Shown piece after piece: positions 2,797 to 21,205 of a DNA stretch of 23,352 nt. The stretch is from positions 1 through 23,352 of IMG/VR virus record IMGVR_UViG_3300017708_002046. The stretch is one strand, 5' to 3'. Made by a program: the position numbers and the translations under genes. Position 1 is the stretch's first letter. Every line of letters starts with the position of its first letter. This DNA comes from a virus. A model generated the notes under the pieces. It worked only from the letters and a program-made list of their open reading frames with translations, was not told where the DNA came from and did no database searches.

Positions 2797-5700
2797 TTAG
2801 ATGAATACCTTCTTGGATATATTTCCAGTATTCCGTAATCCAAAACCTTTTCTGGTTACAGTTGGGTACGTACTCAGACCAACGTCATATGTATTTCCGT
2901 TGGGTTCAAATGATAATGCACCCTCAACTCTATTGAAGCTGCTCAGTTTGCCCCAAGAGAATTCACCAACATAATCTCCGTTTGAAGAAATGCCAGATGT
3001 AATAGTATCAGACTTGATATTGGATGTTATGACACCAACATTACCATTAAATGAAATGCTACTTACATAATAGATGTTATCAACAATTGTGCTGATGCCC
3101 ACAATTTCAGAGTCAGAACTGTCAACTGATGTGATTCCTGTTCCAACAACAGTGGTATTTTGAACCACGATTGGATACCCAACTAATAAAGTTTGTAGTA
3201 GAGCTGGACTACCAGATTTGGATAGATCCAATTCAAACTTCATTGCGAGAGGGTGTCCAGAAATTCCAGTGGTTGTTCCAATACCTGTGATAATACCAGA
3301 ATAACCTAGGATAACTTCTGCTTCTTTAATTGTATCTTTGATTGGTTTTGCAAGTTCAACAATTACTTGTGGAACATTTGTATGTGTGTAACCAAATCCA
3401 GGTTCATCGATTGTAACACTGGTCAATTGACCACCAGAAGCAGTTCCAGTCAATTCTGCGGTACCACCAATACCAATGATGTTGAATAGTGAATTATCAA
3501 CCTTTTTAGGTGCTTGAATCTTAATTTCAATTGCACCATCAGGATAACCAGAACCACCATTAACAATTGTAATTTCACTAATTGTTCCAGCAGCAGAAAC
3601 GGTAGCAGTAGCAGCTGCTGCAACTACATTTTGATATCCAATAATGTCTGCATCACAAACAACTTCTGCTAGATTTGCTCCAGGTGCATTTTCTTCATAC
3701 TGGAAGAAGTCTGCATTGTCAAGGAATATTTCAGTATCGCTAGAACTAAAGTTTTTAATTACCTTAGCAACTGGCATAATCTGCGCTTCAAGCGAATCGC
3801 GAATTTTAGTAATCTTCTCTTCAAAGATAACCAAATCTCTCTTTTGCTTAGTTACATCAATTGGTCTGAATATATTTTCATTAATGCCCTGATTTCTATA
3901 GATGTTTGTTTCTACTTTTTCGGATTCAACAATAGCACTTAGAACTCTATCATTTTGTTCAAAAATTGAGCTAGGACGATCACCTTTCAGTCTTAATATG
4001 TCACCAGCTTTTAGTGATTCAAAGACAGTAACAATCTTACTATCAACATCCTTAGTTCCTCTATAGAAATAGATGGCAATATTATCAGATTTGAGTGGTG
4101 CAGCCGTAAAGTTGAAATTGAAACTTGTACCACCAGAGAAGAAGTAATCTTTCCCAGGAGTTTGTATCACGCCGTTCACAAATACTAGAAGAACAGCATC
4201 AAGATCAATTAGTGCTGATTGTGGATTTTGCTCATCCTTCTGGAAACTGAGACTAGCTCCATTCAAATTTAGAGGGAATCTAGTTCTCACACCATTTTGC
4301 AGAGAACTAATTGAGTCAATATAGTCAACTTGTCCGAAGTTCCAAGAAGAGAATGTATCATTTGAAATTTCAGTAACTTCAAAGATCATGTCAGTAAAGA
4401 TAGTTCCCACTCCAGTAGCAGTAACTAAACCGACTGGTTTGAACTTATCACCACGTCTAAATCCAAATCCAGTATCAGCAAGTCTAAATCCACTAGCTTC
4501 AAACACTGTCGAACCAATACCTGTTGTTGTAGAAGCAGAAACAATAACATTAAGTTTCGCAGCGAATCCAGAATCAGTTGTTTCGCCAACAGCAACACGA
4601 GATACACCCACTACAGGCATTTCAGAGTAATTTGGATCTTCAATATTAATTGTTGGAGATGTATAACCTGTTCCAGCGTTAGTAATTGAGAAGATCGCTG
4701 TTCCACCTAAACCTGCAGTAGCAGTGATTGATGCATTAGTTCCTTCATGACCAACTTCTTCAATATCTACGTTAATTGCACCAAAATAACCAGATCCAAA
4801 CGTTAGACCAGAATAATATTCGGCCGCTTCTCCACTAGGAACACCTCTTCTTCTGCTAGGAACATATGTATGTGCAAAACCAACTTTCAATACATCAACT
4901 TCAAATTTATTATCATCTATAATTGTTCTGATGGAATATGGGTTGGCATACTTAACACCAAATACAACACCATGATCATCATAGATATGGTCAATTGTGG
5001 AAACTCCTACATTAGTGATAATTTGATTAGGAGCAGGAAGACTAAAGATCTTGAATTCAGATCCTTGAGTTCCATCTGGGAAAATTGAAGTTGTGATGCC
5101 AATTCTAACCTTACCAGTTCCAGAAACATAATCGTGAGCAATTGTAGAAATACCTACGTTTGTAACGATTGATGTTCCAGAACTTCCAGCATTAACATTA
5201 AAGTAGAAACCTTGAGTTCCATCTGGGAATATAGTTGTTGTCACGCCTGCATGAGGAGCTGCACATGAGAATTCAATATCGCGAAGCATTACCAAATCAC
5301 CATCACTTAAACCATGATTATCTGCTGTTAGGATTGTACTAACGCCAGTTGATGCAGTGTAATCAAAGTCATAGATAGCAATCTCATTACCATATGCAAG
5401 ACAAGTCATTGCAATTCCAGAGAGATTAATTACATCTCCAATGGCAAGACCACTGTAATTTTTCTTAGTAGTAATAGTTGAGAAACCAGTTGTCTTATCA
5501 TATTCAAAATTAGAGATTGCGAAAGGAATACCTCTATTGTCTGGGAATCTAGTGGTCGTGAATCCAGTCTCAACAACACCTCCACTATGAGCAACATAAG
5601 TGTGTGCAAATCCAACTGGTAGAGCATTTACTGAGAAGTTCTTAGAGTCGATTACTTTTCCAACTTTATAACCACCAACAAATTTGACACCTTGGGCAAC

Positions 5701-8700
5701 ACCATTAGCTGAATAAGTATGTGCAATTGTGGAAGGACCAACGTTAATCTTAATCTCAGTTCCAGAAGGAACATCTAGAACTTCAAACTCATCAATAATT
5801 GTGTCTGGGAAGATGGTTGTAGTTACTCCAGAGTGCTCTGAGGAACATGTAAATTCAATATCCTTAAGTCTTACAAACTCACCAGTAGTAATATTGTGAG
5901 TCTTTCTGGTTGCGATTGTGCTAACACCAGTTGCTTCAGTATAATCGAATCCAGAAATTGCCCATTCAATTCCAAGATCACTTGGGAATACGTTAGTCGT
6001 AATACCAGTTTCAACGTTTCCACCACTATAAGCAATGTATGTGTGAGCAAATCCAACAGTTGGAATCTGAGCTTCAAACTCAGTAGTGGAGTTGACCTTG
6101 GTTACATTGAATCCTTCATCATATTGAACTTCAGATAGGATACCATGTGCGGAATATGTATGGGCGATAGTTGAGATGCCAACGTTGACATTGATTGTAG
6201 AAGCGCCAACACCAGTTACCTTAAAGGTATCTCCTTGGGTACCATCAGGGAAGATAGTTGTTGTTACACCAGCATGTTCTGAAGAACATATAAATTCAAT
6301 ATCTTCTAGTTTGATATCTGTACCAACTGAAATTTCATGATTTCCAGATAGTGTGATTATGCTTGATCCACTGTTCTCAGTATATTCAAAGTTGACAATT
6401 GCAAACTGCTTACCTTCAGAACTTGGGAAGACATTAGTAGTAACACCAGACTGAACAAGACCACCACTTACATATGTGTGAGCAAATCCAACAGTGTCTA
6501 TCTGAGCCGTAAACTCTGTACCAGATCCTACATTTGTGACTGTGTATCCCTCAAGATACTTAACACCAGAGACAAAACCACCACTATCATAAGTATGTGC
6601 AATGGTAGAAATACCAACGTTGACTTTTAGTTCAGTTGCAGAGGGAACTGATAGAACTTCATATTCAAATCCTTGAGTGCCATCAGGGAATGTTGTTGTA
6701 GTAACGCCAGCGTGCTCTACATCACATGTAAACTCAATGTTTCTAATATCAACTGTTTCTCCAATAGTTATGTTGTGGTTTCTGTTGACGGTAATTGTAC
6801 CAACACCAGTAGACTCGGTATAATCAAATCCAGTAATTCCATATTGAATTCCAGCTTTGCTTGGGAACTTAGTTGTTGTGATTCCAGTTTCAACTGTTCC
6901 ACCACCAATTGGAATATGTGGAATAGTCGTTATACCGACCTGAGTAGTGAACTGAGTGGCGCTTAGAGTAGACTCTACGGTATTGAAGATTCTACCATTT
7001 GTGCCATCGGGGAAAATAGTTGTAGTGACACCAGCATGTTCTTCTGTACATGCAAATTCAAGATCAGCCAATCTCAAGGACATTCCTTTATTGAGAAGAT
7101 GATTGGTGCTTGTAGTGACAGTTAGGATACCAGAAACATGATCATACTCAGTACTGGAGATTCCCAATTGGGTGTCAAATCCCTTCTGACACTCCATTTC
7201 AAGATCATAGAACTTGACCTTCATATTTCTGTTTAGTTCGTGATCACCGATTGTGGAAACAGTGATAATACCAGAAACATTATCATAATCTGCTGTGTAG
7301 ATTCCAACCGTAGGTAAGAATTCTTTAGTACATTCAAACTTCAGGTCATGGAACTTGACCTTCATATTTCTATTCAGGTCATGTGCAGAACTTGTAGTTA
7401 CAGTAATGATTCCAGAGAGATGATCGTAACTAGCAGTAGAAACTCCAAGTAGATTGTCAAATCCTTTAGTACACTCAAACTTGAGATCTCTGAACTTAAC
7501 TTCCATATCTTTGTTCAGGAAGTGATCTGTCTTCGTCGTGACAGTCATAATGCCTGATACATTATCATAATCTAGTGCAGAAACACCGACCAGACTGTCA
7601 TATCCACTTGTACAATCAAATTCAATATCTCTCATAGAAACAAAGTCGCCAATCTTGAAACCATGTGCATTTTCAGTTGTTACTGTTCCAATACCAGAAG
7701 ATTGGGTATAGTCGAAGTTTGTGATTGTGCTGTAAGTTCCTACAGTTTCAACACCAACAACGGTTGTAATGGATCCAGAGGCATCTACATCTACAATAAC
7801 CTTAGCACCAACCAAAGGTGCTATTCCTGTACCACCAGTGTATGCCAGAGAAACAATAATACCACCCTTAGGAAGCTGGTTTGCGTTAACATCATCAAAT
7901 GATAGATATGGATCACCAGTAATTAACTTTGTACCACTAAATTGTAGATTTACACCCTCAGAATCTGTTTCTAGAGAATACACATTAAGTGGATTGTTAT
8001 CAGTAGTTTGTCCTTGATGAATACCATTGATGAATACCACACCACTTCCAGATGCAGTTTCTAATCCAACTGGCCTATTTCCTCCAGAAGTTAATCTAAA
8101 TGTCTGTGCAATTCCAGTAAATTGTGTGGATACATCATCATAGATTTCATTTAGACTATAATCTTGCTTTAGATAAACTCTTCCGCTGAAAGAAGATCTT
8201 GTATAGAATAGATTTCTATCATCGGTTAAGAAGTCAGCACCAGCACCTTTTGGCGGATCAGTAAAGTGAATTGTTGATTGGATAATATTATAAGCACCTC
8301 TAAACAACTCAACATCTGCACCATGTGAATACAAATCAACAACTTTCGTTCCTAGAGCAGCTCTATCCACATTAACAACATTAAATGTCCCAACACCAGA
8401 GATTGGGCCTACATTAGATGAAGCCGCACCAATGTTGCGAACTTTCATAAATTCATCATCAATTTTTAACAAATCTCCAGGAACAATAGTAGAAATTCCA
8501 GAAATTGCAAAGAATGTTCTGGAAGATCCAACTTCTTCTTTCGTCTGATAAACAATGTTTGTACTTGAAACAGGATCCTGAATAATACCATCAATAGTAA
8601 TAAACGTTTTGGATAGTTTCTTAGTAGTCTCAATTGTGTGAGCATTTCCACCACCAGTAGCAGTAATTGCCGCACCAATTTTTCTAGCAGCAAAATCTTT

Positions 8701-11700
8701 CTTAGTTGCAAACTTAATAGTGTTTGGATCAACAACAATTGCAAAGAGTTGACTTGGTAGAATATTTGTACTAATTCCAGTTGTATAATTCTGTCCTACG
8801 GTACTTGCAAGAGCCACTTGAGACATTGAAACTGCAATTCCAAGACGCTCAGAATAATATGTACTTCCAACGCCAACAGGCAAATTATTGTCTACAGTAA
8901 TAGAATTAATACCAATTGATGTGATTGTTCCAAAACCAGTTTCAGTATCAAGTTCTCTAATAGTATCTCCAATTGCCAAGACAGATGTATTTGCTACTCC
9001 ACTAATAATCTTGCCACCATCAGTATCCCCAAAGAAGAATCTGAAAGAAGATCCAATACTAACAATAGTAGTTCCTGTAGAAACAGTAACACCAATAATT
9101 TCATCTCCAACATTTATATTTAAATCTGTGCTTGCAGCAGAAACTATCTTAGAGTTAATTACAGAGTCGCCAATGAATTCTGATCCACCAGCAAGTGTAT
9201 TTGCAATACCAATAGATTCAGAATTGACACCAATAATTGATGATGCTGCAGTGTAAATAATTTCCTGTGTATTGAACAGGAAGTGGTTGGGAATATTAAG
9301 TTCTCCAGTTGATAGATCTAAAATTGAACTATTAGTTGGATTGAAAGATCTAGCAAAAATTAGATCACCATTGTGCTTGAGATCAAAATCTAACTTATCA
9401 TTTGGAGTATATACAGCTTGTGCAAGATCGTTAATTGATACTCCATATGGGAAATCTGGAATAGCAGCAATATTTGTATCTTGTTCTTTATAGATAATTT
9501 CACTATATTGAGAAATCTTAATGTTTTCTCCATTGTACTTACTATCGGGAATGAATAGTAAGTTTGCAAAAGGACCATTAAATTCACCACTAAAAGTACC
9601 AAGACCAATTGGTGTATTGACTCCAGTCTGTGCATATTCAAGAATCATTGTATCTACAAGACCATTATCCTGAGAGAATAGGACTTGACTCATAGAAATA
9701 GTTTCTCCAATTGCAACTCTAACAACAGATTTAGCGTATCTATCAATTAGTGTTGATAATCCGACAACAGTAATACCATAACCAGCAGATGTTTCTTCAA
9801 TTTTGTTGGACTCAACTCTTGCAGTTCTTTCAGATCCATCATCCTGACCAGCAAGTTTGATGTGATAAGAAGAAAGACCAACATTTGAATTCTGCAATCC
9901 AACAACATTGAATTTAATTTGTGTTGTTTGTGCAGTATTATTATGGAAATCAATCGCTAAAGTATCATTAGCAACTACATCAGTTTTTAGATATGCTCCA
10001 AAAGTACCGATAGCTCCAAATGATAATCTCTCCCTGTCATCAGAACTGAATCCATATTCAGACATATGAACATTTGTTCCATCGTTAATAACAGTTAGCT
10101 CAGAATAACTCAGTTCATTTGTAGTTGTATTTTTAATTTCAGCATATACCATTAAGGCATCATATTCAGAAGAACCTACTCCAATAATTGTAGTAGTTAT
10201 GCCCGTAAGAACTGGTTTTGTAATTCCAAATAGTTCAGTATCACCAACACTAAATGATCCAATTCCACTTGTTCTAGAGTCAAACAGTTGTCTGAAAACT
10301 TTAATGTTATATGTTTTGGTTGGATTTGATGGTGTAAATCTAACTTTTAAATCAATAGATATACTATCATAAATTGATGTAATCTCACCGATAGTTTCTT
10401 CCTCTTCAGGAATGAGTGGTAATACTCCAGAGGACTTAATCCTAGACTTTTCTAAGATGAATGAATTTTCATTACCATCATTAGTTACAATAACTTCATG
10501 AATTTCATAATGTGTTGGATCTAGTACATCAGTAACTAAAATATAAAGTTTAGATGTTCCCGCAATTGGTGGAAATACCAAAATATCTTTAAATGAACCT
10601 TGAAGGTTTTCACTATCAACGAATTCAGTACTAATATCATCAATTGTTAGAACTCTATTTGTAATACACTCAATATAAGAAGATAGTTTTTTAGAACCAA
10701 ATTTGATTGAACTTGTGGTACCTTCAGCTACATCGGTATCAACAGCAAAGTCAAAATTTCTCAGTGTAGTAGTATTTGTTTCACTAATATAATCAAGGAT
10801 AATATTTTGGGTTGTCGTATCTTTATAATCAGGAATAACTCCTACAGACTCAATCAACGTATTGGCAAAATTCTTTGTACCTGCAATATGAGTTAGTCTG
10901 TTTACAGGACCACTAAACTCAGTAAACTCTAAAGGACTACTAATAGAATAAGATAACTTTTGATAGTAATCATTATCAGGTATTACCTGATAATCAGTGT
11001 TAAGGAATCCAATCTCATCATCCCATCCAAAGTTTTGATTAATGCCATAATCAACGTCATAAGAACCTTCAAATCTATTAATATTTTTAATATTTGCCCT
11101 TGTACCAGAAACTGAACCAAAGATCCTATCACCAGACTCTAATACATAATCGCCAAAAGTTTTTAAAACATTTCCTTCAGATTTTGTTACAATTAGATCA
11201 GTGTCTACAAAATTTGCAGATAGTGGAGTCTTTACTTGCAGTCTCTCATTGATGGTAAAATTATCTGGTTCGATCGAAACTTCAAATGTTGGATAGTTTT
11301 CAAATTTAGAAACATTTCCAAAAATAACGTCAGTTACAGCGATACCAGCATTAGTTGTAAAGTCTTGAAGACTATATGTTAGAGTTGATGGATTAATACC
11401 GCCATTAAAACTCTGCACCTCAAAGAATGTGAATCCATAATCTTTAGAGTTGAATCCATCACCAACACTTCCAAATGTCTGAAGACCATCAATAAAGATT
11501 TTGTCTCCAGCCTTAAATGGTGACGTTGTGAATCCAAGAACAGGAGTTCTCAATGTTACAGTTACAATACCCGTATTAACACTGTCAACCTCAGTGATAG
11601 AAATTCCATTACTATTTGAAATACTATAAACACTATGTCCAACACCAGCTAGTCCAGAAGGTGTGCTTACAATTTCTACAGTCTCAATGGATCCAGAACT

Positions 11701-14700
11701 TAATTTTGCAATAATTTCTGCATCTTCAACTTCTGTTTTAGTTACTGAATTTACTAGTACTAAATCTGGAGGAGTAATAAAGTTTTGACCGCCATATACA
11801 GTCTTAATTTCTTTTACTTTATTGGAATTGCTAACATCATAATATGTTGGAATATCTGCAACAGGTTTTAGTGTTTTATCTTGAGAGAAATCAAATCCTG
11901 GTTTTTCAATAACAACAGACTGTAAAGCTCCAATAGTCTTAGACTCCGCAAATACCTCAGCGTTTACTCCTTCTTCACTTCTAATTGAAGTGATACCAGG
12001 TATTCTCTTATAAGAATCTCCTGCAGAAAGAATTCTAACATTTGAAATGCCACCGTTAGATGTTTTAGATCTAGTAGTATAGGATAGCACTTCACACTCA
12101 GTTTTTGCATAAGAAACCCTTTCTGGAGTTTGCTGTAGAGAAACTGTAAATGATGTTGTAGAAGCTGCTGCACCAATAACCTTTGTTTTAATATTATAGT
12201 TACTATCAATAAATGAAATCTTAGAATAGTTCTTTGATGCAAAATCTGGTTCAATAAGATCGCCTTTCTTAATATTGTAGAAGAGTTCGTTGGGTAGATC
12301 TTCAGTAAATTGTACGGTAAATGTGGCAGTAGTTCCTAATCCAACAGTTCCATTTCTGGTAACCTGGAATATATCGGTATTACCTGTACCAATAAATTCA
12401 GTTCTAAATGACTGATCTAGATATAGATCAAAATCATAGTTAAACAAAGATTGATGTGACAAATCAAATTTTATATTGTTATTCCTAACAATTCTCAAGT
12501 TTGGATTTATCTTGGCAATCGTATGTGAAGTTCCTCCAATTGAAGTGAAGGATACGGTTTTAATAGTTTTACCTTCTAGATCTTTCTTGGTTTCAACTAA
12601 GGAGAAATTATTTTTGTCAATTGAGTATACAAAGTACTTTCCAGTTGAAAATCCAGCTGGTAGTTCAGAGGAATTGTAGTAGACCAGATCTCCAGTCTCA
12701 AAACCATGATTATTAATGGTGAATTTTGAGCTAGAAATTCCAACTGAAGAAGAAGTGAATCCTACTGGATCAATAATGATGTTCTGAATATCTTCTTGGA
12801 ATTGAACCCTAATTTCAGTTGATGTTCCAATACCAACTGTTAGGTTTGGTTTTACTTGGAGAGTGACATCATCACCAAGGGATAATCCATGACGTGATGC
12901 TCCATTAATTGTTGCAGAAAGTCTAGAAACATCTCCCCTAACTTGTAGAGGTTGTGTTGTGAGTTTATATTGATAATTATCACTTCCAAAGTTGTGGAAC
13001 GCTAATTCTTCGCCGTTAATTTCTGTTTTAATACCAATTAAGTTTTTACCTTTATCGGTTAGATATACAATCTGAGAATCTGTGCCATCAGCAGGCAAAG
13101 AGAAAGTCGTCAATCCAACATTAGATGAAACAATTAATGGTAAAGTTGTACTTAGTTTTTCAAAAATTGCTTTTTGATTTGTATTGAATTTGTGATCTTG
13201 AATATGAATAGATTTTGATAAAATATCTCTTTCTGTCGTAAATCCAGATACTGTATATTCCCTAGTAGTTGTTAGACCAGCAATAGTTCCAAGACCAACT
13301 GTTTCTTTAGGATTGAAATATGCAATTTCTTTTTTGTTAGATACAAATCCATCGCCTGCAAGAGATATCTCAAAACTATTTGGTCGTAGATTTACAGGTG
13401 CTCCTATTGTATGCCCAATAGAAGTAGTGCCTCTTATAGCTCTAACTACACCAATGAATCTATTTGCAACGGTATTTGGTTTATAAACATTAAGTACAGT
13501 TAACTCTTCTCTATTACCTACAGTACCAATAGAAACTCTACCATCAGGTCTTAAAAACTCTGGAATTGGTGAGACTGTAATATCAGTTACAATACCACCA
13601 AAAGGTTCATTAGGCATTGATGTTTTTAATTTTGTAAATTCTGTCGGAACAGAAATTTCATGAGAATCTGCCAATCCACTAATAAATGTAGATAATCCAG
13701 ATATACTAATTATTTCTCCTGTGGAATATTGGTGGAAAGTTCCAATAACACCAGTTATTTTGTCTACATCAGTTCTTTCAAATACAATATCCTTATATGT
13801 TAGTGTAGATTCAACAAGTGTATCTACTGGTTTTCCTTTTAATTCAGAAACTTCTGCTGAAGCCCCACCTCCATTAGTCTCTTCATTGTTGAAATCAATC
13901 TTATCCCCAACTTTATAATCATCACCAGATTCAACAATTACAACAGACTCTATACCACCAGAGTTGATTTGATCTACAACAATTCTCTGATTTTCTAATT
14001 CATATGGTTCAACAAAAAAGTCATAGTCTGCGTTTTCTTCAGAAACTGCATATGGGTAAGTATTTCTAAGTACACCTGAATTATTAAAATCAAATTCTTG
14101 ACTTAATGACTCCTCTTGTCCAGAAAGATTCTCTACGACAACATTGGATCTATATGAATCACCAATGAAATATGGGAAACTTGGTTCTAGATCTCCACTG
14201 AGAGGATTAGTACTCTTGGTTGCATAGTATACATAAGTTCCTTTTGGAAACTCTGGAGTTTTTGCAAATCTACCATTAGATTCATCAAGATCTCCATTTC
14301 CTACAAAATAGTAATCTTCCACAAAAATTCCTTGTGGGAATCCAATTGGTCTATTACCCACTCGACTAATATCAATTTGATATCCTGATACTATTTCACG
14401 AATATCTGATACTGAGTCATTTGGGTCAACATATCCATATATTCCATAAATTGGATTGCCATCATAAGCCCAACCAATTAGGGGAGAATGTGATGTTTCA
14501 TCAGTATCTTCAAATTCGGTTGCAAGTTTACTTGTGTACCCCCCAACTCCATACTGTAAACCGACATCATCACCTTTATTCAATAAACTTACGCCAAGAT
14601 CATTTTTGAACTTATAATTTCTATTGATTGTAAGACTTCTAATTTTCGGTGCGATGAATCCCCTGTTTCCTCTAGGGATTGCAACAACTCTTGTTGTGTC

Positions 14701-17700
14701 AGAGTCGTATCCAATTCCCCCATTAATTACAGCAATAGAATCAATCTTTTGATTTTTTATAATTGCCCTAAAGATGGCACCAGTTCCTTTTAAATCTTCG
14801 GCTATGATATCTGGCACTGAGAAATATTCTTTTCCGCCTTCTTTTACAATTACGGAATTAATTCTTCCATTTATGATAGATGGCTCAAGTTCTGCACCTT
14901 TACCATTAAGAATGTCAACAGTTGGATTTTTTTCAAAGTTTAAGATATCAGAACCATAAGATGAACCTTTTTCATATAACAACGTATTGACAATAGAACC
15001 CTTAACAATTGCAGTTGCAGTAACAACACCAACTGTATTTGCAATGGATACATTTACATCTACAGTAATTGGGGGATAGTTAAATTCATGATATCCAGAC
15101 CCAATGTTTTCAAATTTTTCGGTTAATGATCTATCAAAGTTAGTTCTATCAGTACCACCAACTCCAGCAAATGCAATTCTAAATTTATCATCATTTACTT
15201 TTATAACAAAATATTGATTAGATGTACTAATACCTGTTAGAGGAGTGCCAGTTGGAGTATATGTAATTAACTCACCTGTTGAGAATCCATGATTTTTAAA
15301 TTCTAGTGTATTTGATACTGTAGAGATACCAGTAGTTTGAATGGATACTTTTCTATTCTCATAACCGCTACCAGAATCTAATACATTTACACCAATAATC
15401 TTTTTAGTTGGTCGTAATAATCTAAATGACTGTCTACCACCATAATTTCCTGTTGTAAAACCAACTGTATTGATACCACTGTTTAAATCATTAAGAGTTT
15501 CATAAAGTCTGAAAGTGGTTGGTGATAGAATTTCTGTATAGTAAACTCCGCCAGTCTCTAGGAATTTTCCAGTAGTTATTGTTGCACCAAAACCTGATGC
15601 TACAGGAATTGGGGCATTTCCTGCAGGATCGTATACTACAACTTCTCCACTTCCAAAATTGTGATTGCTGATGGTTTGAATTTTAGAATCTTCACCAAAA
15701 CCAACGCCACCATCATTTTCCTCAAGCTGTGACTTGAAAGAAACAGATCTAAAACTATCAACAACTACAGGTTCTACTAATGCACCAGATCCATTTCCAC
15801 CTTTTATTTCAATACCAAATACATTTTCAATATTGAAATCTTGACTATCAATTAATACAGTTTCTAAAGATCCACGGACAGCTAGGTTAGCTAAAGCGGT
15901 AGTCGCTCCAGAAACATTAGGTGCAGATATTCTAACTGCGGGTGGATTGGATACATCATAACCAGTTCCAGAACTAACAACAAAAATGCTTTCTAATGGT
16001 CCAAAATAAACTTTATCGTCAGTTTTATAGTTAACAATTTCCACACCATTCTTCAAAATACCAGTTGATCCTGGTACAGTGCTGAATTTTGCTCCAGTAT
16101 CAACTCTTGGTTGGATTGGAAATTTCTTTAGAATTTTTTGTGGAGCAATTTTTTTATTATATTGCTCTGATAAGGTAAATTTATGAGCTCCAACTGCATT
16201 TGATGGAACTTTAATTTTAATATTTTTGTTCTGGTCTACAAATGATCTTGCTAAGTATAGTCTTAATTTATTTGAATAGTTAATTACTTTTACATAATAC
16301 TTTCTACCATCCTCAAGACCTTCAATTGGATTCTGCCCAGGGTCAACAGAATATATGACTTCATCTCCAGTAATAAATGGAAGATTATCACTGAATGATA
16401 ATGTATTGTAAGTATCGTTAGTGTTTGAATCTAAATCCTGTATAGTTCCATTTAGAGGAGAAATATTAGTTAACTCTACTTGAGTATAATCAACTTCAAT
16501 ATTAAAAGAAGGTAATGATGAAGATGCGGCGTAAAGATTACTGTCATCACTAGAAATATAAGTATTCTGAATATCAGATGTTAGAATATTGTTTCCAAAT
16601 TCTAACTCAATTCCTGTACTAGTAGATTTTTTCTGCTTTCTTCTTATTTTATAAGAAATTCCTTGAACTAGATTTGAAATACCAGATCCTGCAAGAATTA
16701 CAACATTACTAGCAGATACAGTAACACTTGCACTAGAAATAAGAATTTCATTATTTCCACCATTAAGGATTTCTACTTCATCATTATTTTTTAGAAATGC
16801 CTTATCAATAGTTTGATCTAAAACAAATGTAGAGCCTGAAAAACTCTTTACATTAATTGTAACTGCAGTATTGTAATCCCAAGAATTGAATTTAATTTCT
16901 TCAATGGACTTATTCTTGATTGGATTCTTAATTTTCTTACCAATAGTCTGAACTCGGAATACCTCGTCCTCGTCATTATAAAAAATAGATCCTTTTCTAT
17001 TAAACTTTGAAATTACACCAGTTATCTTTAATTCTACTCTTTCCCCATCATCATTAAATGCATATGCAATATCATTTGTTCTGATTTCGTCAGTAGTTTG
17101 AATTTCTTCTGTTATTCCAGAACAATTCAAAAATTGATTGATTGTTTTATCCGTATATGTAATAATATTATTTCCACTAATCAATAACCCACTCTTAGGG
17201 AATCCAATAGTGCTATCAACAGTAATTACTTCTGCATTTACAGCAAAATTTCCAATTGCTCTCGTTTTGTTAGTTGCACTAAATTTACCATCAAATCCTG
17301 GAGCAGGATCGCTATATCTATCAATCAGAAATACGTTATAATATGGTTTTCCTCTTTTTGTAATAAATTCAACTTCGGAAATAGGTGCAGATGCGCCATC
17401 TATATTTGGATCATTTGCATTTGCGTCTTGAATTAGAGTTTTGCCAGTTAATGTTAGTGGATCTCCACTTACTTTTTCAGCTACAATAGTAACTCTTCTT
17501 TTAAAATTGGCAGTTGAAGATTGTATTAGTAAATCTGCTTGATTCTTAATATCAGACTCTTTTCCAAATAGAGCTGAGATAAGAATTTTAAATGAATCTA
17601 AAGTTCCCTTAGAAGTATAGAAGGATCTTAGGTTTTTTACAAAATTGTTAAGGTTCAGTGTAGATACAAAAGTCTCATCTTCAAATCCTGGAGCAAATGA

Positions 17701-18207
17701 AACTTTTAGATTTCTAAAAAATTCTTTTAAGAAAAGTACACTTAGATTAGTTACAGTTGTATCAGAACTATGACTAGACGCAGAACTCTCTTGGAATACT
17801 ACTTCCCCATTTTTATAATCTGTGACGCCACTAAATCCTCTAGCGCATCCAGTTAAATCATTCCCACTTACTTCTTTGTAGTAAATGATTTCACTACCAA
17901 CTTTAATTAAACCGTCATTTTTTGGCAGCCCTCTTGTAGAAGCAAGAGTAATCGTAGTATCAGTAGATGAGATACTAGATGATAGGGTGGTTTTTCCCTT
18001 GATTACATCAGGTGTAAGATTGTCAAATTTTAGATATTGATCTAAATTCTCAATAATATCAGATACCCCACCTTGGGAATCTTGTGTAAGGTAATATTGC
18101 TTTAAAAAGTCAATCGTCTTGGGACTTTCCGCGACGATATAAGATGGTAATAGACTTTCAACTAATTGTCCAATTTTAACGCGCTTGTTTATTCCGGCTT
18201 CAATCAT
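2797..18207 (-). CDS. gp7: Giant gp7-like (VrlC-like) baseplate wedge protein, 5136 aa
   Basis: One uninterrupted 15.4-kb frame lies between gp6 and gp8, the T4 slot of gp7, the wedge organiser. In cyanomyophages this slot holds a large protein often called VrlC-like. T4 gp7 is about 1032 aa, so this is about five times longer. Residues 1-300 (LPSYIVAESPKTIDFLKQYY at 20-39, FYTSKGTLDSFKILISALFG at 196-215) resemble, from memory, the C-terminal wedge part of T4 gp7. Next come ITLxxTxGxP-type beta modules (about 70-125 and 325-370), four copies of a ~70-aa NHGFxTGDxVxY module, a YHYH-like domain (1239-1355), many GGxGY segments, a hierarchical repeat array (about 3500-4450), and a C-terminal part with FVNGVIQTPGKDY. 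No signal peptide or membrane segment is evident. The ATG follows the gp6 stop by one base (TAAAATG), with AAGG as a close ribosome site. Gene and virion role are sure; gp7 equivalence is likely from position and the N-terminal motif. Confidence 0.85.
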   Translation of the reverse strand: MIEAGINKRVKIGQLVESLLPSYIVAESPKTIDFLKQYYLTQDSQGGVSDIIENLDQYLKFDNLTPDVIKGKTTLSSSISSTDTTITLASTRGLPKNDGLIKVGSEIIYYKEVSGNDLTGCARGFSGVTDYKNGEVVFQESSASSHSSDTTVTNLSVLFLKEFFRNLKVSFAPGFEDETFVSTLNLNNFVKNLRSFYTSKGTLDSFKILISALFGKESDIKNQADLLIQSSTANFKRRVTIVAEKVSGDPLTLTGKTLIQDANANDPNIDGASAPISEVEFITKRGKPYYNVFLIDRYSDPAPGFDGKFSATNKTRAIGNFAVNAEVITVDSTIGFPKSGLLISGNNIITYTDKTINQFLNCSGITEEIQTTDEIRTNDIAYAFNDDGERVELKITGVISKFNRKGSIFYNDEDEVFRVQTIGKKIKNPIKNKSIEEIKFNSWDYNTAVTINVKSFSGSTFVLDQTIDKAFLKNNDEVEILNGGNNEILISSASVTVSASNVVILAGSGISNLVQGISYKIRRKQKKSTSTGIELEFGNNILTSDIQNTYISSDDSNLYAASSSLPSFNIEVDYTQVELTNISPLNGTIQDLDSNTNDTYNTLSFSDNLPFITGDEVIYSVDPGQNPIEGLEDGRKYYVKVINYSNKLRLYLARSFVDQNKNIKIKVPSNAVGAHKFTLSEQYNKKIAPQKILKKFPIQPRVDTGAKFSTVPGSTGILKNGVEIVNYKTDDKVYFGPLESIFVVSSGTGYDVSNPPAVRISAPNVSGATTALANLAVRGSLETVLIDSQDFNIENVFGIEIKGGNGSGALVEPVVVDSFRSVSFKSQLEENDGGVGFGEDSKIQTISNHNFGSGEVVVYDPAGNAPIPVASGFGATITTGKFLETGGVYYTEILSPTTFRLYETLNDLNSGINTVGFTTGNYGGRQSFRLLRPTKKIIGVNVLDSGSGYENRKVSIQTTGISTVSNTLEFKNHGFSTGELITYTPTGTPLTGISTSNQYFVIKVNDDKFRIAFAGVGGTDRTNFDRSLTEKFENIGSGYHEFNYPPITVDVNVSIANTVGVVTATAIVKGSIVNTLLYEKGSSYGSDILNFEKNPTVDILNGKGAELEPSIINGRINSVIVKEGGKEYFSVPDIIAEDLKGTGAIFRAIIKNQKIDSIAVINGGIGYDSDTTRVVAIPRGNRGFIAPKIRSLTINRNYKFKNDLGVSLLNKGDDVGLQYGVGGYTSKLATEFEDTDETSHSPLIGWAYDGNPIYGIYGYVDPNDSVSDIREIVSGYQIDISRVGNRPIGFPQGIFVEDYYFVGNGDLDESNGRFAKTPEFPKGTYVYYATKSTNPLSGDLEPSFPYFIGDSYRSNVVVENLSGQEESLSQEFDFNNSGVLRNTYPYAVSEENADYDFFVEPYELENQRIVVDQINSGGIESVVIVESGDDYKVGDKIDFNNEETNGGGASAEVSELKGKPVDTLVESTLTYKDIVFERTDVDKITGVIGTFHQYSTGEIISISGLSTFISGLADSHEISVPTEFTKLKTSMPNEPFGGIVTDITVSPIPEFLRPDGRVSIGTVGNREELTVLNVYKPNTVANRFIGVVRAIRGTTSIGHTIGAPVNLRPNSFEISLAGDGFVSNKKEIAYFNPKETVGLGTIAGLTTTREYTVSGFTTERDILSKSIHIQDHKFNTNQKAIFEKLSTTLPLIVSSNVGLTTFSLPADGTDSQIVYLTDKGKNLIGIKTEINGEELAFHNFGSDNYQYKLTTQPLQVRGDVSRLSATINGASRHGLSLGDDVTLQVKPNLTVGIGTSTEIRVQFQEDIQNIIIDPVGFTSSSVGISSSKFTINNHGFETGDLVYYNSSELPAGFSTGKYFVYSIDKNNFSLVETKKDLEGKTIKTVSFTSIGGTSHTIAKINPNLRIVRNNNIKFDLSHQSLFNYDFDLYLDQSFRTEFIGTGNTDIFQVTRNGTVGLGTTATFTVQFTEDLPNELFYNIKKGDLIEPDFASKNYSKISFIDSNYNIKTKVIGAAASTTSFTVSLQQTPERVSYAKTECEVLSYTTRSKTSNGGISNVRILSAGDSYKRIPGITSIRSEEGVNAEVFAESKTIGALQSVVIEKPGFDFSQDKTLKPVADIPTYYDVSNSNKVKEIKTVYGGQNFITPPDLVLVNSVTKTEVEDAEIIAKLSSGSIETVEIVSTPSGLAGVGHSVYSISNSNGISITEVDSVNTGIVTVTLRTPVLGFTTSPFKAGDKIFIDGLQTFGSVGDGFNSKDYGFTFFEVQSFNGGINPSTLTYSLQDFTTNAGIAVTDVIFGNVSKFENYPTFEVSIEPDNFTINERLQVKTPLSANFVDTDLIVTKSEGNVLKTFGDYVLESGDRIFGSVSGTRANIKNINRFEGSYDVDYGINQNFGWDDEIGFLNTDYQVIPDNDYYQKLSYSISSPLEFTEFSGPVNRLTHIAGTKNFANTLIESVGVIPDYKDTTTQNIILDYISETNTTTLRNFDFAVDTDVAEGTTSSIKFGSKKLSSYIECITNRVLTIDDISTEFVDSENLQGSFKDILVFPPIAGTSKLYILVTDVLDPTHYEIHEVIVTNDGNENSFILEKSRIKSSGVLPLIPEEEETIGEITSIYDSISIDLKVRFTPSNPTKTYNIKVFRQLFDSRTSGIGSFSVGDTELFGITKPVLTGITTTIIGVGSSEYDALMVYAEIKNTTTNELSYSELTVINDGTNVHMSEYGFSSDDRERLSFGAIGTFGAYLKTDVVANDTLAIDFHNNTAQTTQIKFNVVGLQNSNVGLSSYHIKLAGQDDGSERTARVESNKIEETSAGYGITVVGLSTLIDRYAKSVVRVAIGETISMSQVLFSQDNGLVDTMILEYAQTGVNTPIGLGTFSGEFNGPFANLLFIPDSKYNGENIKISQYSEIIYKEQDTNIAAIPDFPYGVSINDLAQAVYTPNDKLDFDLKHNGDLIFARSFNPTNSSILDLSTGELNIPNHFLFNTQEIIYTAASSIIGVNSESIGIANTLAGGSEFIGDSVINSKIVSAASTDLNINVGDEIIGVTVSTGTTIVSIGSSFRFFFGDTDGGKIISGVANTSVLAIGDTIRELDTETGFGTITSIGINSITVDNNLPVGVGSTYYSERLGIAVSMSQVALASTVGQNYTTGISTNILPSQLFAIVVDPNTIKFATKKDFAARKIGAAITATGGGNAHTIETTKKLSKTFITIDGIIQDPVSSTNIVYQTKEEVGSSRTFFAISGISTIVPGDLLKIDDEFMKVRNIGAASSNVGPISGVGTFNVVNVDRAALGTKVVDLYSHGADVELFRGAYNIIQSTIHFTDPPKGAGADFLTDDRNLFYTRSSFSGRVYLKQDYSLNEIYDDVSTQFTGIAQTFRLTSGGNRPVGLETASGSGVVFINGIHQGQTTDNNPLNVYSLETDSEGVNLQFSGTKLITGDPYLSFDDVNANQLPKGGIIVSLAYTGGTGIAPLVGAKVIVDVDASGSITTVVGVETVGTYSTITNFDYTQSSGIGTVTTENAHGFKIGDFVSMRDIEFDCTSGYDSLVGVSALDYDNVSGIMTVTTKTDHFLNKDMEVKFRDLKFECTKGFDNLLGVSTASYDHLSGIITVTTSSAHDLNRNMKVKFHDLKFECTKEFLPTVGIYTADYDNVSGIITVSTIGDHELNRNMKVKFYDLEMECQKGFDTQLGISSTEYDHVSGILTVTTSTNHLLNKGMSLRLADLEFACTEEHAGVTTTIFPDGTNGRIFNTVESTLSATQFTTQVGITTIPHIPIGGGTVETGITTTKFPSKAGIQYGITGFDYTESTGVGTITVNRNHNITIGETVDIRNIEFTCDVEHAGVTTTTFPDGTQGFEYEVLSVPSATELKVNVGISTIAHTYDSGGFVSGVKYLEGYTVTNVGSGTEFTAQIDTVGFAHTYVSGGLVQSGVTTNVFPSSEGKQFAIVNFEYTENSGSSIITLSGNHEISVGTDIKLEDIEFICSSEHAGVTTTIFPDGTQGDTFKVTGVGASTINVNVGISTIAHTYSAHGILSEVQYDEGFNVTKVNSTTEFEAQIPTVGFAHTYIAYSGGNVETGITTNVFPSDLGIEWAISGFDYTEATGVSTIATRKTHNITTGEFVRLKDIEFTCSSEHSGVTTTIFPDTIIDEFEVLDVPSGTEIKINVGPSTIAHTYSANGVAQGVKFVGGYKVGKVIDSKNFSVNALPVGFAHTYVAHSGGVVETGFTTTRFPDNRGIPFAISNFEYDKTTGFSTITTKKNYSGLAIGDVINLSGIAMTCLAYGNEIAIYDFDYTASTGVSTILTADNHGLSDGDLVMLRDIEFSCAAPHAGVTTTIFPDGTQGFYFNVNAGSSGTSIVTNVGISTIAHDYVSGTGKVRIGITTSIFPDGTQGSEFKIFSLPAPNQIITNVGVSTIDHIYDDHGVVFGVKYANPYSIRTIIDDNKFEVDVLKVGFAHTYVPSRRRGVPSGEAAEYYSGLTFGSGYFGAINVDIEEVGHEGTNASITATAGLGGTAIFSITNAGTGYTSPTINIEDPNYSEMPVVGVSRVAVGETTDSGFAAKLNVIVSASTTTGIGSTVFEASGFRLADTGFGFRRGDKFKPVGLVTATGVGTIFTDMIFEVTEISNDTFSSWNFGQVDYIDSISSLQNGVRTRFPLNLNGASLSFQKDEQNPQSALIDLDAVLLVFVNGVIQTPGKDYFFSGGTSFNFNFTAAPLKSDNIAIYFYRGTKDVDSKIVTVFESLKAGDILRLKGDRPSSIFEQNDRVLSAIVESEKVETNIYRNQGINENIFRPIDVTKQKRDLVIFEEKITKIRDSLEAQIMPVAKVIKNFSSSDTEIFLDNADFFQYEENAPGANLAEVVCDADIIGYQNVVAAAATATVSAAGTISEITIVNGGSGYPDGAIEIKIQAPKKVDNSLFNIIGIGGTAELTGTASGGQLTSVTIDEPGFGYTHTNVPQVIVELAKPIKDTIKEAEVILGYSGIITGIGTTTGISGHPLAMKFELDLSKSGSPALLQTLLVGYPIVVQNTTVVGTGITSVDSSDSEIVGISTIVDNIYYVSSISFNGNVGVITSNIKSDTITSGISSNGDYVGEFSWGKLSSFNRVEGALSFEPNGNTYDVGLSTYPTVTRKGFGLRNTGNISKKVFI
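5269..7065 (-). repeat. Long composite repeat modules in the gp7-like gene
   Basis: Anchored on the recurring codons for (I/L)EFxC, the copies start at 7054, 6730, 6292, 5851 and 5269. Spacings are 324, 438, 441 and 582 bases (108, 146, 147 and 194 aa), all in frame. Each copy carries HAGVTTTIFPDGT-like, VGISTIAHTY-like and (in most) VGFAHTYVSGG-like segments. The 146/147-aa forms exceed the 108-aa form by 38-39 aa, which is a second copy of the AHTY subunit. The 194-aa form exceeds 147 by exactly 47 aa, the core unit of the adjacent array. A degenerate last copy runs on to about 4850. Confidence 0.85.
7054..7629 (-). repeat. Tandem 141-bp (47-aa) repeat in the gp7-like gene
   Basis: The codons for D(L/I)(K/E)FxC recur at 7618, 7477, 7336, 7195 and 7054, an exact 141-base step each time, giving four full 47-aa units (about residues 3527-3715). 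The consensus runs YDxVSGIITVTTxxxHxLNRNMKVKFxDLKFECTKGFD-like, with one conserved Cys per unit. The two middle units share a 21-base identical block (7210-7230 and 7351-7371), so at least that duplication looks recent. These are coding repeats in a predicted beta-rich shaft or spike, not a CRISPR or an intergenic element. Confidence 0.9.
14143..14493 (-). other. YHYH-like domain inside the gp7-like protein
   Basis: Residues 1239-1355 read SHSPLIGWAYDGNPIYG (1239-1255), then GDLDESNGRF (1305-1314), PEFPKGTYVYYAT (1318-1330) and FPYFIGDSYRSN (1344-1355). This order matches what I remember of the YHYH domain (Pfam PF14240): a G-x-A-x-DG-x-PIYG core, an LDE.NGR segment, a TPEFPxGTYxY segment and a terminal FPY.IG. 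The N-terminal Tyr-His-Tyr-His motif that names the family is not visible just upstream. The family has no firm biochemical function that I know of; here it is probably a folded insertion exposed on the baseplate. Confidence 0.65.
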
Positions 18208-18208
18208 T

Positions 18209-20119
18209 TTACCTTGTTAACTTACCATTGGAGTAACTTGATGTAACGGGGAACCCTAGACCAGAAACTTGTTCTCCTGATGTAATGGTATCCTTCACCA
18301 TATTTATGGTGCTTTTATCGGTCGCTAAGACAACAAACAGATTACTCAATCCTATGATGTCATTACTTTCTGGAAATGCCTGAACTTCAATAATTCCACC
18401 AGAAATTTGTGTTCCTACAATGTTTGTAGTGCTTAGAATTATTTCGCCAGTTACATAATTAACAGTTCCAGCATTTTTTACTAATACTGTAAAATTATCA
18501 GAAACTTCTTCAGAAACAAATGATATAACACCAGTTTTCAGATCATCATTTGGTGTATCTGTCATATAAAGCAATTTACTAATTCCATTTATATTAAATC
18601 CAGTAGATTTAATATTTTTTCCATCTTTAGAAACATGGAAACGATTTCCAAAACACAATTCATATTGAGCATCTCTATTTAAAGATGCTCTCAAATCTCT
18701 TCTAATCTTTATTCTTGTAATGTTTGAAGTAATGGATGTATTTGTAGAATCAATCTCATTCAGAAACTTACTATATTTGAATCTACCGCCAAAATTGTTC
18801 AAATCTTCAGATGCAGCAAAATCATTCAATGATTGACCAATTAGACTCTTTAGATCATTAACACTAACAACCTTACTTGAGTTGTAATATACAAAAGTGT
18901 CATATTCAATGGAAAGAATCTCAAGGTCAACAATAGACTGTCTAATTCCAGCTAATGAGTACTGTTTTAAGTTTGCAAGAATTTGTTGTTTATTAAATTC
19001 TGAAATATAGAGACTATTTTTTGGTTTGATACTGATCTGGACCTCTCCAAATCTTGGTGGATCCAATTCTTCACCACCAACTACTGCTACAGACTCAGAT
19101 TCTGGATAAACTAACTTGACAATGGTCTCATAATCACTAGCCGTAACCGCTCTGTACTGTGATGAATAGAGTCTAGGAGCAAAGTATTTAACAGAGCGTA
19201 AAGACTCAATTGCAGCGCCTCCTTGCGCCTTCTGAGTGGTTGTTATGTTGACTGTATTGGATGGTTGAATAACTTCATCTGTTCCACCTCTGGCATTTCC
19301 AGAAAAACTGAACACAGATGCACCATTACTATCTTTACCATCAGTTATAATATAAGAAACATCGATGACGCTACCAGTTTCTAGTGCTTTTCCAAAAATT
19401 CCATCACCAAATAGCAATTCATACTTTTCATCCTTGACTTCTTGGATGAAATAAATTTCTGAGTTTGAATCTAGAGTGGTTATACTATCAATTTTCCTAT
19501 ATTCTTTGCCAGCAGTTGTATCTGCAGGACCTTTTACCCTAACAACAAGTGTTGAAGTATCAATTGAAATATTATTGAGAATAAATCTTTGATCTAGAGA
19601 AGTATCTACGGTAAAACTTTCTCTTGAAAGAGTTCCTTGGTAGATTTTTAAATTATTAAATGTAGCAGTTCTAGGGCCAACTAAAATATCACTCGCAGAG
19701 TCGAGAGGAGATGTTGTAACGATGTCTTCTGGTAGCGAGAATACAAAACTACTATTATTAGTGTTTCCTACGCAAATAAGACCCGCTTTTAACGTTACAG
19801 TTTGACTTTCTCCATTAAATTTAATTGAAAATGTAACTTCAGAGATAGCAGACTTTTTGGATATTGGAACATATCCAACATTTCTAGCCAAAGAGACGAC
19901 ATTTTCTCTTAAAGTGGCAGATTCAATGAAAGATTCATTCACTGCCATGTTCGCATTGAACGCAGTGATGTAAGTATTGTATGCTAATGCGTCAATTAAG
20001 ACAGAAAAGTTAGAACCTTCAAAATCAAAGTCGGAAAAATCTGAATTTGACCTCAGATAATCTTTAATTGACGTTTTTATTTGGTCAAAATCAATATTTG
20101 TGTAATTTGTAAATGGCAT
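18209..20119 (-). CDS. gp6: Baseplate wedge subunit gp6
   Basis: A 636-aa protein, close to T4 gp6 (660 aa). The N-terminus has the gpJ/gp6 pattern: MPFTNYTNIDFDQIK, then NESFIESATLRENVVSLARN (about 60-80) and a NVGYVP-like turn. The middle holds KYFAPRLYSSQYRAVTASDY and a Pro/Gly-containing PRFGEVQISIKP stretch, typical of the baseplate J-like fold. In T4-like phages, gp6 dimers link adjacent wedges into the inner baseplate ring, together with gp25 and gp53. The ATG overlaps the gp25 stop by one base (TAATG), and GAGG lies ten bases upstream (20130-20133), so the two are translationally coupled. The 3' end carries an inverted repeat with a late-promoter-like core that could serve gp7. Confidence 0.92.
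   Translation of the reverse strand: MPFTNYTNIDFDQIKTSIKDYLRSNSDFSDFDFEGSNFSVLIDALAYNTYITAFNANMAVNESFIESATLRENVVSLARNVGYVPISKKSAISEVTFSIKFNGESQTVTLKAGLICVGNTNNSSFVFSLPEDIVTTSPLDSASDILVGPRTATFNNLKIYQGTLSRESFTVDTSLDQRFILNNISIDTSTLVVRVKGPADTTAGKEYRKIDSITTLDSNSEIYFIQEVKDEKYELLFGDGIFGKALETGSVIDVSYIITDGKDSNGASVFSFSGNARGGTDEVIQPSNTVNITTTQKAQGGAAIESLRSVKYFAPRLYSSQYRAVTASDYETIVKLVYPESESVAVVGGEELDPPRFGEVQISIKPKNSLYISEFNKQQILANLKQYSLAGIRQSIVDLEILSIEYDTFVYYNSSKVVSVNDLKSLIGQSLNDFAASEDLNNFGGRFKYSKFLNEIDSTNTSITSNITRIKIRRDLRASLNRDAQYELCFGNRFHVSKDGKNIKSTGFNINGISKLLYMTDTPNDDLKTGVISFVSEEVSDNFTVLVKNAGTVNYVTGEIILSTTNIVGTQISGGIIEVQAFPESNDIIGLSNLFVVLATDKSTINMVKDTITSGEQVSGLGFPVTSSYSNGKLTR
18296..18311 (-). promoter_or_regulatory. 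Inverted repeat with late-promoter-like core in the gp6 3' end
   Basis: The arms CACCATA (18296-18302) and TATGGTG (18305-18311) are perfect reverse complements around a two-base centre. On the minus strand the centre reads CATAAATATGG, which contains ATAAATA, one base short of the T4 late motif. It lies about 90 bases upstream of the gp7 ATG, inside gp6 codons. It could be an internal late promoter for the giant gene, or chance in AT-rich coding DNA. Confidence 0.3.
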
Positions 20120-20520
20120 TATCGTGTTGCCTCTAAGATAAACGTAAATTCTTGAGTAGGGACAGATAACCCAACAATATTATATGCTACTACACACTCA
20201 AATTCATTCAAATCTGGTCTGGGAGAAACTTCTACCATGACATTATCAACTCTTGGTTCAAATTCTTCAACAACTTGCTTGATTTGTTCCCTAATTTCGG
20301 TCGAAGCACCAAAATCAACAAATTCAAACATTAAATCACCAACGGAAGACCCAAGATCAGGGGAAAAAAAGCGTTCGTTGAACTGTGTTTGTACTAAATT
20401 ACGCACAGCTCGCTGAATTGCTCTATCATTTTTTAGTATAGGAAGGTCCTTTGTGACAGGATGAGGATCAAAAGACAAGGAAATGTCCTTAAATCCCTTT
20501 GAAACCTTTAAAACTGCCAT
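20119..20520 (-). CDS. gp25: Baseplate wedge subunit gp25 (gpW/gp25 family)
   Basis: At 133 aa it is nearly the same length as T4 gp25 (132 aa). The middle holds the family signature NERFFSPDLGSSVGDLMFEF (about residues 48-67), followed by an amphipathic helix EIREQIKQVVEEFEPRV and a closing beta sheet (NVMVEVSPRP, then CVVAYNIVG). In T4 and in related contractile systems this small protein sits in the inner baseplate and nucleates the tail sheath. It is the first gene after a late-promoter motif placed 21 bases before its ATG, and it overlaps gp6 by one base. No good Shine-Dalgarno is visible ahead of the ATG. Confidence 0.95.
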   Translation of the reverse strand: MAVLKVSKGFKDISLSFDPHPVTKDLPILKNDRAIQRAVRNLVQTQFNERFFSPDLGSSVGDLMFEFVDFGASTEIREQIKQVVEEFEPRVDNVMVEVSPRPDLNEFECVVAYNIVGLSVPTQEFTFILEATR

Positions 20521-20536
20521 TTATCGACCATGAACT

Positions 20537-21205
20537 TTATGTATTTAGAGAGGTTTCCTCCTGTTCTTCAGGAGTTTCCCAGAAATATTCATCAGTATCT
20601 CCTAGTCTACCCCATCTCACATTATTCTCAACTTGGAAATAGTGTGTGGAAACCTTAAAATCGGGTACAAGAGGTTCTTCTGGGGTAATAGAAAGATCAT
20701 AAATGCGCGTTCTATTATTTGGGTACAACGCAAACTGTCCGTTTTCAAGCTCAATGCAGTTATGCGACTTATGTTCCTCTGGAATTTCACTTACATTTGT
20801 ATTTGTAATATCAACATCAGGATGAAAATTATCTAAGGTAAACAAATATTCACCTTTTATGTTTCCATAGTTTCGCGTTCTTAGTTCAAAATCCATTGAA
20901 CCGATAAATTGCTTCTCAATACATCTTAATCCATAGTCCATGCAGTTCCAAAACTGCAAATTTGGCAAATCTAAATCAGGAGTAGGTGTCTCTGGACGTG
21001 AGACAAATGCGGAGATTGGCAATTTATCAAACATTGCCGCATACTTTGGTAAATATGTCTCAAAATAAAAAGCGCGTCCAGGAATCGACTTAGCCGATAC
21101 CCAAACGCCCTCTACAAATTCGCCAAAACCATCTTTAAAATCTCGTAAATATTCTTTACGTACCCAGACTTTTTGTGCTGGTAAATTGACGACTAATTGA
21201 CTCAT
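20537..21205 (-). CDS. Conserved T4-like marine phage protein of unknown function, 222 aa
   Basis: I do not know a function for this protein. It begins MSQLVVNLPAQKVWVRKEYL, contains VEGVWVSAKSIPGRAFYFE (about 32-50), PDLDLPNLQFWNCMDYG (about 75-92), NGQFALYPNNRTRIYD (about 154-169) and ends in an acidic tail with RWGRLGDTDEYFWETPEE. From memory, close relatives of these blocks occur just upstream of gp25 in cyanomyophages, so it belongs to the conserved neighbourhood. There is no signal peptide or membrane segment, and many Trp/Tyr/Phe residues suggest a compact beta-rich fold. The ATG lies two bases after the stop of the oxygenase gene (TAACTATG), so expression is probably coupled. Its last codons double as the gp25 late promoter. 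It could be an unrecognised baseplate or tail component; T4 gp53 (about 196 aa) is not evident elsewhere in the window, but I see no gp53 motif here. Confidence 0.85.
   Translation of the reverse strand: MSQLVVNLPAQKVWVRKEYLRDFKDGFGEFVEGVWVSAKSIPGRAFYFETYLPKYAAMFDKLPISAFVSRPETPTPDLDLPNLQFWNCMDYGLRCIEKQFIGSMDFELRTRNYGNIKGEYLFTLDNFHPDVDITNTNVSEIPEEHKSHNCIELENGQFALYPNNRTRIYDLSITPEEPLVPDFKVSTHYFQVENNVRWGRLGDTDEYFWETPEEQEETSLNT
20541..20548 (-). promoter_or_regulatory. Cyanophage-type late promoter motif for gp25-gp6
   Basis: The minus strand reads CTAAATAC. CTAAATA is the late-promoter variant of T4-like cyanophages as I remember it. It lies in the final codons (Leu-Asn-Thr) of the 222-aa gene, 20 bases before the gp25 ATG, so the start of transcription would fall in the short gap. 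Position supports it; the motif is short. Confidence 0.55.

Follow-up and report, generated by a model that had tools for sequence, protein, structure and literature searches.

A giant protein at the gp7 position of a cyanophage baseplate operon contains a ~1000-aa insert, a modular array of two repeat units that is probably an exchangeable, host-facing domain of the baseplate. The protein is encoded in a 23,352-nt stretch of viral DNA (IMG/VR record IMGVR_UViG_3300017708_002046, analysed at its full length and hereafter called the window). Comparison of sequences from related phages has shown that the array acts as a recombination cassette within an otherwise intact protein, because the motifs at its unit junctions (R-D/N-I-E/Q-F-D-C, GVTTTxFPDGTQG and STIxHxY) are sites at which stretches of units are exchanged, lost or gained in frame. 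Repeat-rich, mosaic receptor-binding proteins are already known as a kind; what is new here is the two-unit grammar, its place inside a gp7-position baseplate giant, and crossovers mapped within junction motifs.

The array-bearing open reading frame is flanked by baseplate genes in the order gp25, gp6, giant, gp8 (gp25, gp6 and gp8 assigned from Pfam and PHROGs matches):

20119-20520: gp25
18209-20119: gp6
2797..18207, minus strand: giant protein of 5136 aa, at the gp7 position
14206-14526, minus strand: YHYH domain (PF14240) within the giant, residues 1228-1334, E 1.4e-27
1195-2757: gp8
3-1190: DUF4815 protein

Most of the giant is covered by phrog_2885, a baseplate wedge subunit family (2300 and 968 bits for its two halves; E=0 over 2-2701, E=2e-290 for the C-terminal part). 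The nearest annotated phages, the Synechococcus phages S-T4 and Sf-CH5/CH8, share ~50% identity with it in this protein. The window therefore represents part of the baseplate operon of a Kyanoviridae-type (T4-like) cyanophage. The gp6-giant-gp8 order recurs in S-T4, Sf-CH8 and S-CAM7 (S-T4 and Sf-CH8 have been grown on Synechococcus WH7803 and WH8102), and the phrog_2885 giants of S-T4 and Sf-CH8, labelled 'baseplate wedge initiator' in GenBank, are homologous to ours over their full length. A profile of eight N-terminal regions, searched against PDB sequences at E 0.1, found no homology to a solved T4 gp7 chain, and T4 Gp7 is absent from cyanomyophages and pelagimyophages according to a published comparison (PMC7029224), which also counts YHYH domains among the host-recognition-linked domains that related marine myophages encode in their baseplate operons. 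Other PDB sequence searches returned chance matches or nothing, and the window contained no Rfam family or tRNA. Adjoining the operon on the minus strand is a 2OG-Fe(II) oxygenase-type protein (PF13759; 21208-21741, TTG start). A 222-aa protein (20537-21205, minus strand) matches phrog_3704, labelled ferredoxin, with E 2.5e-108 and has no Pfam match; the gene in its place in Sf-CH8 is annotated as a transcriptional regulator, and the ferredoxin label may be wrong.

The array occupies residues ~3491-4454 of the giant, on the minus strand. The best self-alignment segment scored 489, whereas none of 30 shuffles exceeded 60, which excludes chance as the source of the repeats. Strong self-comparison diagonals at offsets of 47, 94, 108, 141, 145-147 and 194, plus larger ones, were confined to residues ~3480-4460, with the exception of one weak pair elsewhere. 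Core units start at residues 3500, 3547, 3594, 3641, 3688, 3796, 3942, 4089, 4236 and 4283, and the resulting spacings (47, 47, 47, 47, 108, 146, 147, 147 and 47) agree with the module-length arithmetic of a preliminary description of this DNA. HMMs built from the copies resolved two unit types: c, of ~47 aa with its linker (consensus ITxFxYDxxTGxxTVTTxxxHxLxxGxxVxLxDIEFxC), and B, of ~48 aa (range ~48-50; consensus GVTTTxFPDGTQGxxFxVxxVxSxTxxxVNVGxSTIAHTYxxGG). Profiles of c and B share no sequence similarity (P=0.5). The window array reads c c c c cB cBb cBb cBb c cBBb, a content of 10 c and 10 B/b units, where b is a 39-aa shortened B (profile alignment by hhalign, P=98.2, E=3e-14). Every complex module begins its extra sequence 3-5 residues past the EFxC cysteine, the one insertion site that the preliminary description had proposed. 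The parts list of the preliminary description needs recasting: its 61-aa insert is present, as one B plus ~12 aa that restart GVTTTxFP before the next core and not as a natural unit; its ~39-aa piece is the shortened B and not a separate element; its '194' is the sum of two spacings (147+47); and the last module, cBBb (~181 aa), was missed. The features are as follows, all on the minus strand:

4744..7755: whole array region, residues 3485-4488, from blastp against orthologous giants and the empty-site sequence
7174..7737: simple units c1-c4, residues 3491-3678, from the HMM decomposition and the unit tree
6850..7173: module M1, cB, 108 aa, residues 3679-3786
6886..7035: B unit of M1, beginning AGVTTTIFPDGT, residues 3725-3774
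6412..6849: module M2, cBb, 146 aa, residues 3787-3932
5971..6411: module M3, cBb, 147 aa, residues 3933-4079
5530..5970: module M4, cBb, 147 aa, residues 4080-4226
5389..5529: simple unit c9, 47 aa, residues 4227-4273, its position kept in close relatives
4846..5388: terminal module M5, cBBb, residues 4274-4454

Tandem Repeats Finder did not detect the array, to which it is blind because the DNA copies are just ~58-67% identical. A DNA pattern search for EFxC and an NCBIfam search gave no match, neither Pfam nor NCBIfam offers a family that clearly covers the two units, and no paper describing them was found in literature searches that reached few subscription journals.

The array is predicted to be all beta. 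An AlphaFold2 model of 391 residues (pLDDT 59.7) has about four strands in each unit, c and B alike, and its best matches among viral structures were tail-fibre-like proteins of Synechococcus phages; a model of 1101 aa was too poor for use (mean pLDDT 38.2). Searched against the PDB with Foldseek, the 391-residue model, at that low confidence, matched human Uba1 (prob 1.00, E 0.007); in line with this, the E1_FCCH profile (PF16190) of the ubiquitin-activating enzyme E1 gave a weak match at the c unit in 10/10 arrays scanned (best E 8e-7). The whole-array score of 29.5 bits equals the cut-off of 29.5, single modules fall below it, and only profile positions 3-28 of 70 (~26) align. We regard the likeness to Uba1 and E1_FCCH as a lead on the fold and not as an assignment.

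Twenty IMG/VR loci carry the array, and a second scan of contigs from its left flank returned the same set of phages. Replacement of the array region between otherwise near-identical phages was seen twice, once with a donor of the window type (loci L006 and L022) and once with a donor of the type of locus L016 (L017 and L019). L006 and L022 differ at 0-1% of third positions in the flanks and at 42% in the array, whose architecture also differs. The array of L006 is instead 98.7% identical to that of the window over 2634 nt, with 34 differences in the tract, and divergence between these two drops from saturation in the flanks (dS 1.1-1.35) to 0.013-0.048 in modules M1-M4; sliding windows delimit a sharp-edged block at about residues 3525 and 4405. 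In a triplet test of L006, L022 and the window, informative sites within the tract split 356:9 and those beyond it 5:1319, and none of 2000 permutations was as extreme (0/2000). These patterns identify L006, at the level of sequence, as a natural recombinant, an L022-type phage that carries a window-type array. Its left crossover falls in the MRD of the c1 motif MRDIEFDC, and its right crossover at STIDHIYDDHG; in window coordinates, all on the minus strand:

4984..7632: tract shared with L006, residues 3526-4408, 98.7% DNA identity
7627..7635: left crossover interval, codons M-R-D of c1 MRDIEFDC, residues 3525-3527
4969..4992: right crossover interval, B/b junction just past STIDHIYDDHG, residues 4406-4413

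The second natural recombinant, L017, has the backbone of L019 and an L016-type cassette, and the left edge of its tract lies at DMRNIQFDC of c1, the same motif as the left crossover of L006. Its tract is noisier than that of L006 (192:49 informative sites inside), which points to a donor related to L016 but distinct from it. The giant of L016 has, at residues ~1844-2077, a ~230-aa extra stretch with c-like units relative to the otherwise very similar cassette of L017. A milder drop in divergence within the array is seen between S-T4 and L012. For a diversity-generating retroelement target, one would expect adenine-directed variation with a reverse transcriptase and a template repeat nearby; the array differences are block replacements, and no reverse transcriptase gene occurs among the identified ORFs of the window.

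Closely related viruses thus swap the array and change its length through recombination at its motifs, and we propose that they probably do so to alter contact with the host. The array would project from the baseplate and contact the cyanobacterial surface as a putative receptor-binding region; its exchange or change in length may alter adsorption or reach, and exchange would be kept for its effect on adsorption, analogous to the swapping of tail-fibre tips but within a baseplate wedge protein. As indirect support, the same c and B units occur in Synechococcus phage proteins that carry the annotation tail fibre, long tail fibre or endosialidase. These tail-fibre-like arrays (phrog_3442 and phrog_17885; a 3967-aa protein of ACG-2014f, S-CAM9, S-SCSM1 and S-PRM1) follow a similar grammar, but are encoded by separate genes with other N-terminal parts, and their units are only ~25-45% identical to those of the giant. 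Tail-linked recognition domains are variable among near-identical marine phages (Mizuno et al. 2014, PMC3909814), and adaptive mutations of cyanophages, including host-adaptive ones in tail-fibre and baseplate genes (PMC6224464), collect in baseplate and fibre genes (PMC6224464, PMC9910659). The likeness to such metaviromic islands is that a tail-linked, recognition-type region varies in near-identical phages; here, in contrast, what varies is a repeat cassette internal to a baseplate wedge giant, and its crossovers have been mapped to repeat motifs.

The main competing explanation makes the array a structural spacer or rod, whose repeats set the length of a baseplate arm, with copy number and exchange as neutral by-products of repetitive DNA in phages that recombine. 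Copy number does vary widely among relatives and isolates, the array is wholly absent from some orthologous giants, and in the one pair compared the units are under purifying selection (dN/dS about 0.06-0.39) with no signal of positive selection. Against a spacer stand the recurrence of the units in proteins annotated as tail fibres and the replacement of the cassette, twice, in giants that are otherwise 97-99% identical, which goes beyond slippage. We consider the spacer a distinctly less probable reading than a host-facing domain, though one to be taken seriously. Exchange could also be neutral mosaicism aided by the repeats and not a product of selection on host range.

Among relatives, the architecture of the window is shared by L005 and L006. 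S-T4, Sf-CH8 and L008-L012 have c c cB cBb c cBBb in the same place in the giant (6 c and 6 B/b units in S-T4, against the 10 and 10 of the window), and more distant array carriers have c c cB cBb cBb. The giants of S-CAM7 and ACG-2014f hold a small cB-type array without a simple run, that of S-8S56 lacks the array, its flanks lying ~24 aa apart, and that of P-TIM68 has ~110 aa in its place. The array splits a region of GxGY-type repeats (GGTGIAPL..., GLTFGSGYF..., NAGTGYTSPTI), which is continuous in the array-free giants of S-8S56 and P-TIM68:

~7740-7890 and ~4620-4775, minus strand: GxGY-type repeats flanking the array, residues ~3440-3490 and ~4479-4530

In a tree of c units, built on few columns, unit position is conserved across phages. 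Units c2, c3 and c4 of the window group with c2 of the relatives, c9 with their c5 and c10 with their c6, all well supported; c6 and c8 group weakly with their c4 (85/69), and the placement of c7 is unresolved. A shortened variant in M4, IFPDTxxDEFEV, is common to the cBb module of S-T4 and Sf-CH8. The tree makes c3 and c4 copies of c2 that are specific to the lineage of the window, and the long simple run a derived feature; by its groupings, this lineage most likely acquired two further c2-type units as well as two cBb modules. Very recent slippage was rejected as the origin of these extra units because the window copies are old.

This history bears on the order of events in the preliminary description, in which a simple 47-aa repeat came first, was elaborated by insertions and was then reduplicated. 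The insertion site, the gain and loss of whole units there and the later reduplication all hold up; the starting point is not supported, every close relative being already c c cB cBb. In favour of a simple beginning, inserts enter at a single point past EFxC, and the c cBBb of S-T4 and the window corresponds in some relatives to cBb, a difference that amounts to a cB stretch right after xxTC of c9; loss, however, explains this as well as insertion does. With cB and cBb already present in all near relatives, a four-unit simple run that is lineage-specific, and distant giants that have cB-type arrays but no simple run, we judge a simple-first origin very improbable.

A change in length at a junction motif is seen in isolates, the only isolate-based event, in a protein separate from the giant. 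The tail-fibre-like array protein of the ACG-2014f-type phages US7 and US26 measures 3967 and 1365 aa, respectively, with DNA ~99% identical on both sides:

L049:12258-16355 and L050:10678-22581: the ACG-2014f-type pair of tail-fibre-like array proteins, differing by 2602 codons

The US26 protein is shorter by exactly 2602 codons, the join lies inside TTTVFPDGTQG, and this motif is present in US7 at both ends of the piece missing from US26; the FPDGTQG motif singled out in the preliminary description is therefore a recombination point there. The clear recombinants L006 and L017, as well as L022, are metagenome contigs and their arrays are repetitive, so chimeric assembly or collapsed repeats might be suspected, but we think such an artefact very improbable, given parental overlaps at the L006 junctions (~5 nt on the left and about 20 nt or less on the right) too short to be joined through k-mers, the 34 sites at which the L006 tract departs from the window, two separate events in different metagenomes at the same motif, the independent occurrence of the window architecture in L005 and L006, and the fact that US26 and US7 come from isolates, with genomes recorded as complete.

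Cyanophages rank among the major killers of marine picocyanobacteria, and the determinants of their host range are only partly known. We tentatively suggest, at somewhat less than even confidence, that c and B constitute an unnamed repeat family whose junction motifs double as recombination sites, a built-in means of exchanging and resizing a host-contact domain while preserving the reading frame. The analysis describes in concrete terms how a repeat protein can grow, shrink and be exchanged in frame, with crossovers in FPDGTQG, EFxC and STIxHxY. It also defines a cassette of ~2.6 kb and natural recombinants that, within the giant, differ almost only there, and a role of the array in host range is therefore directly testable.
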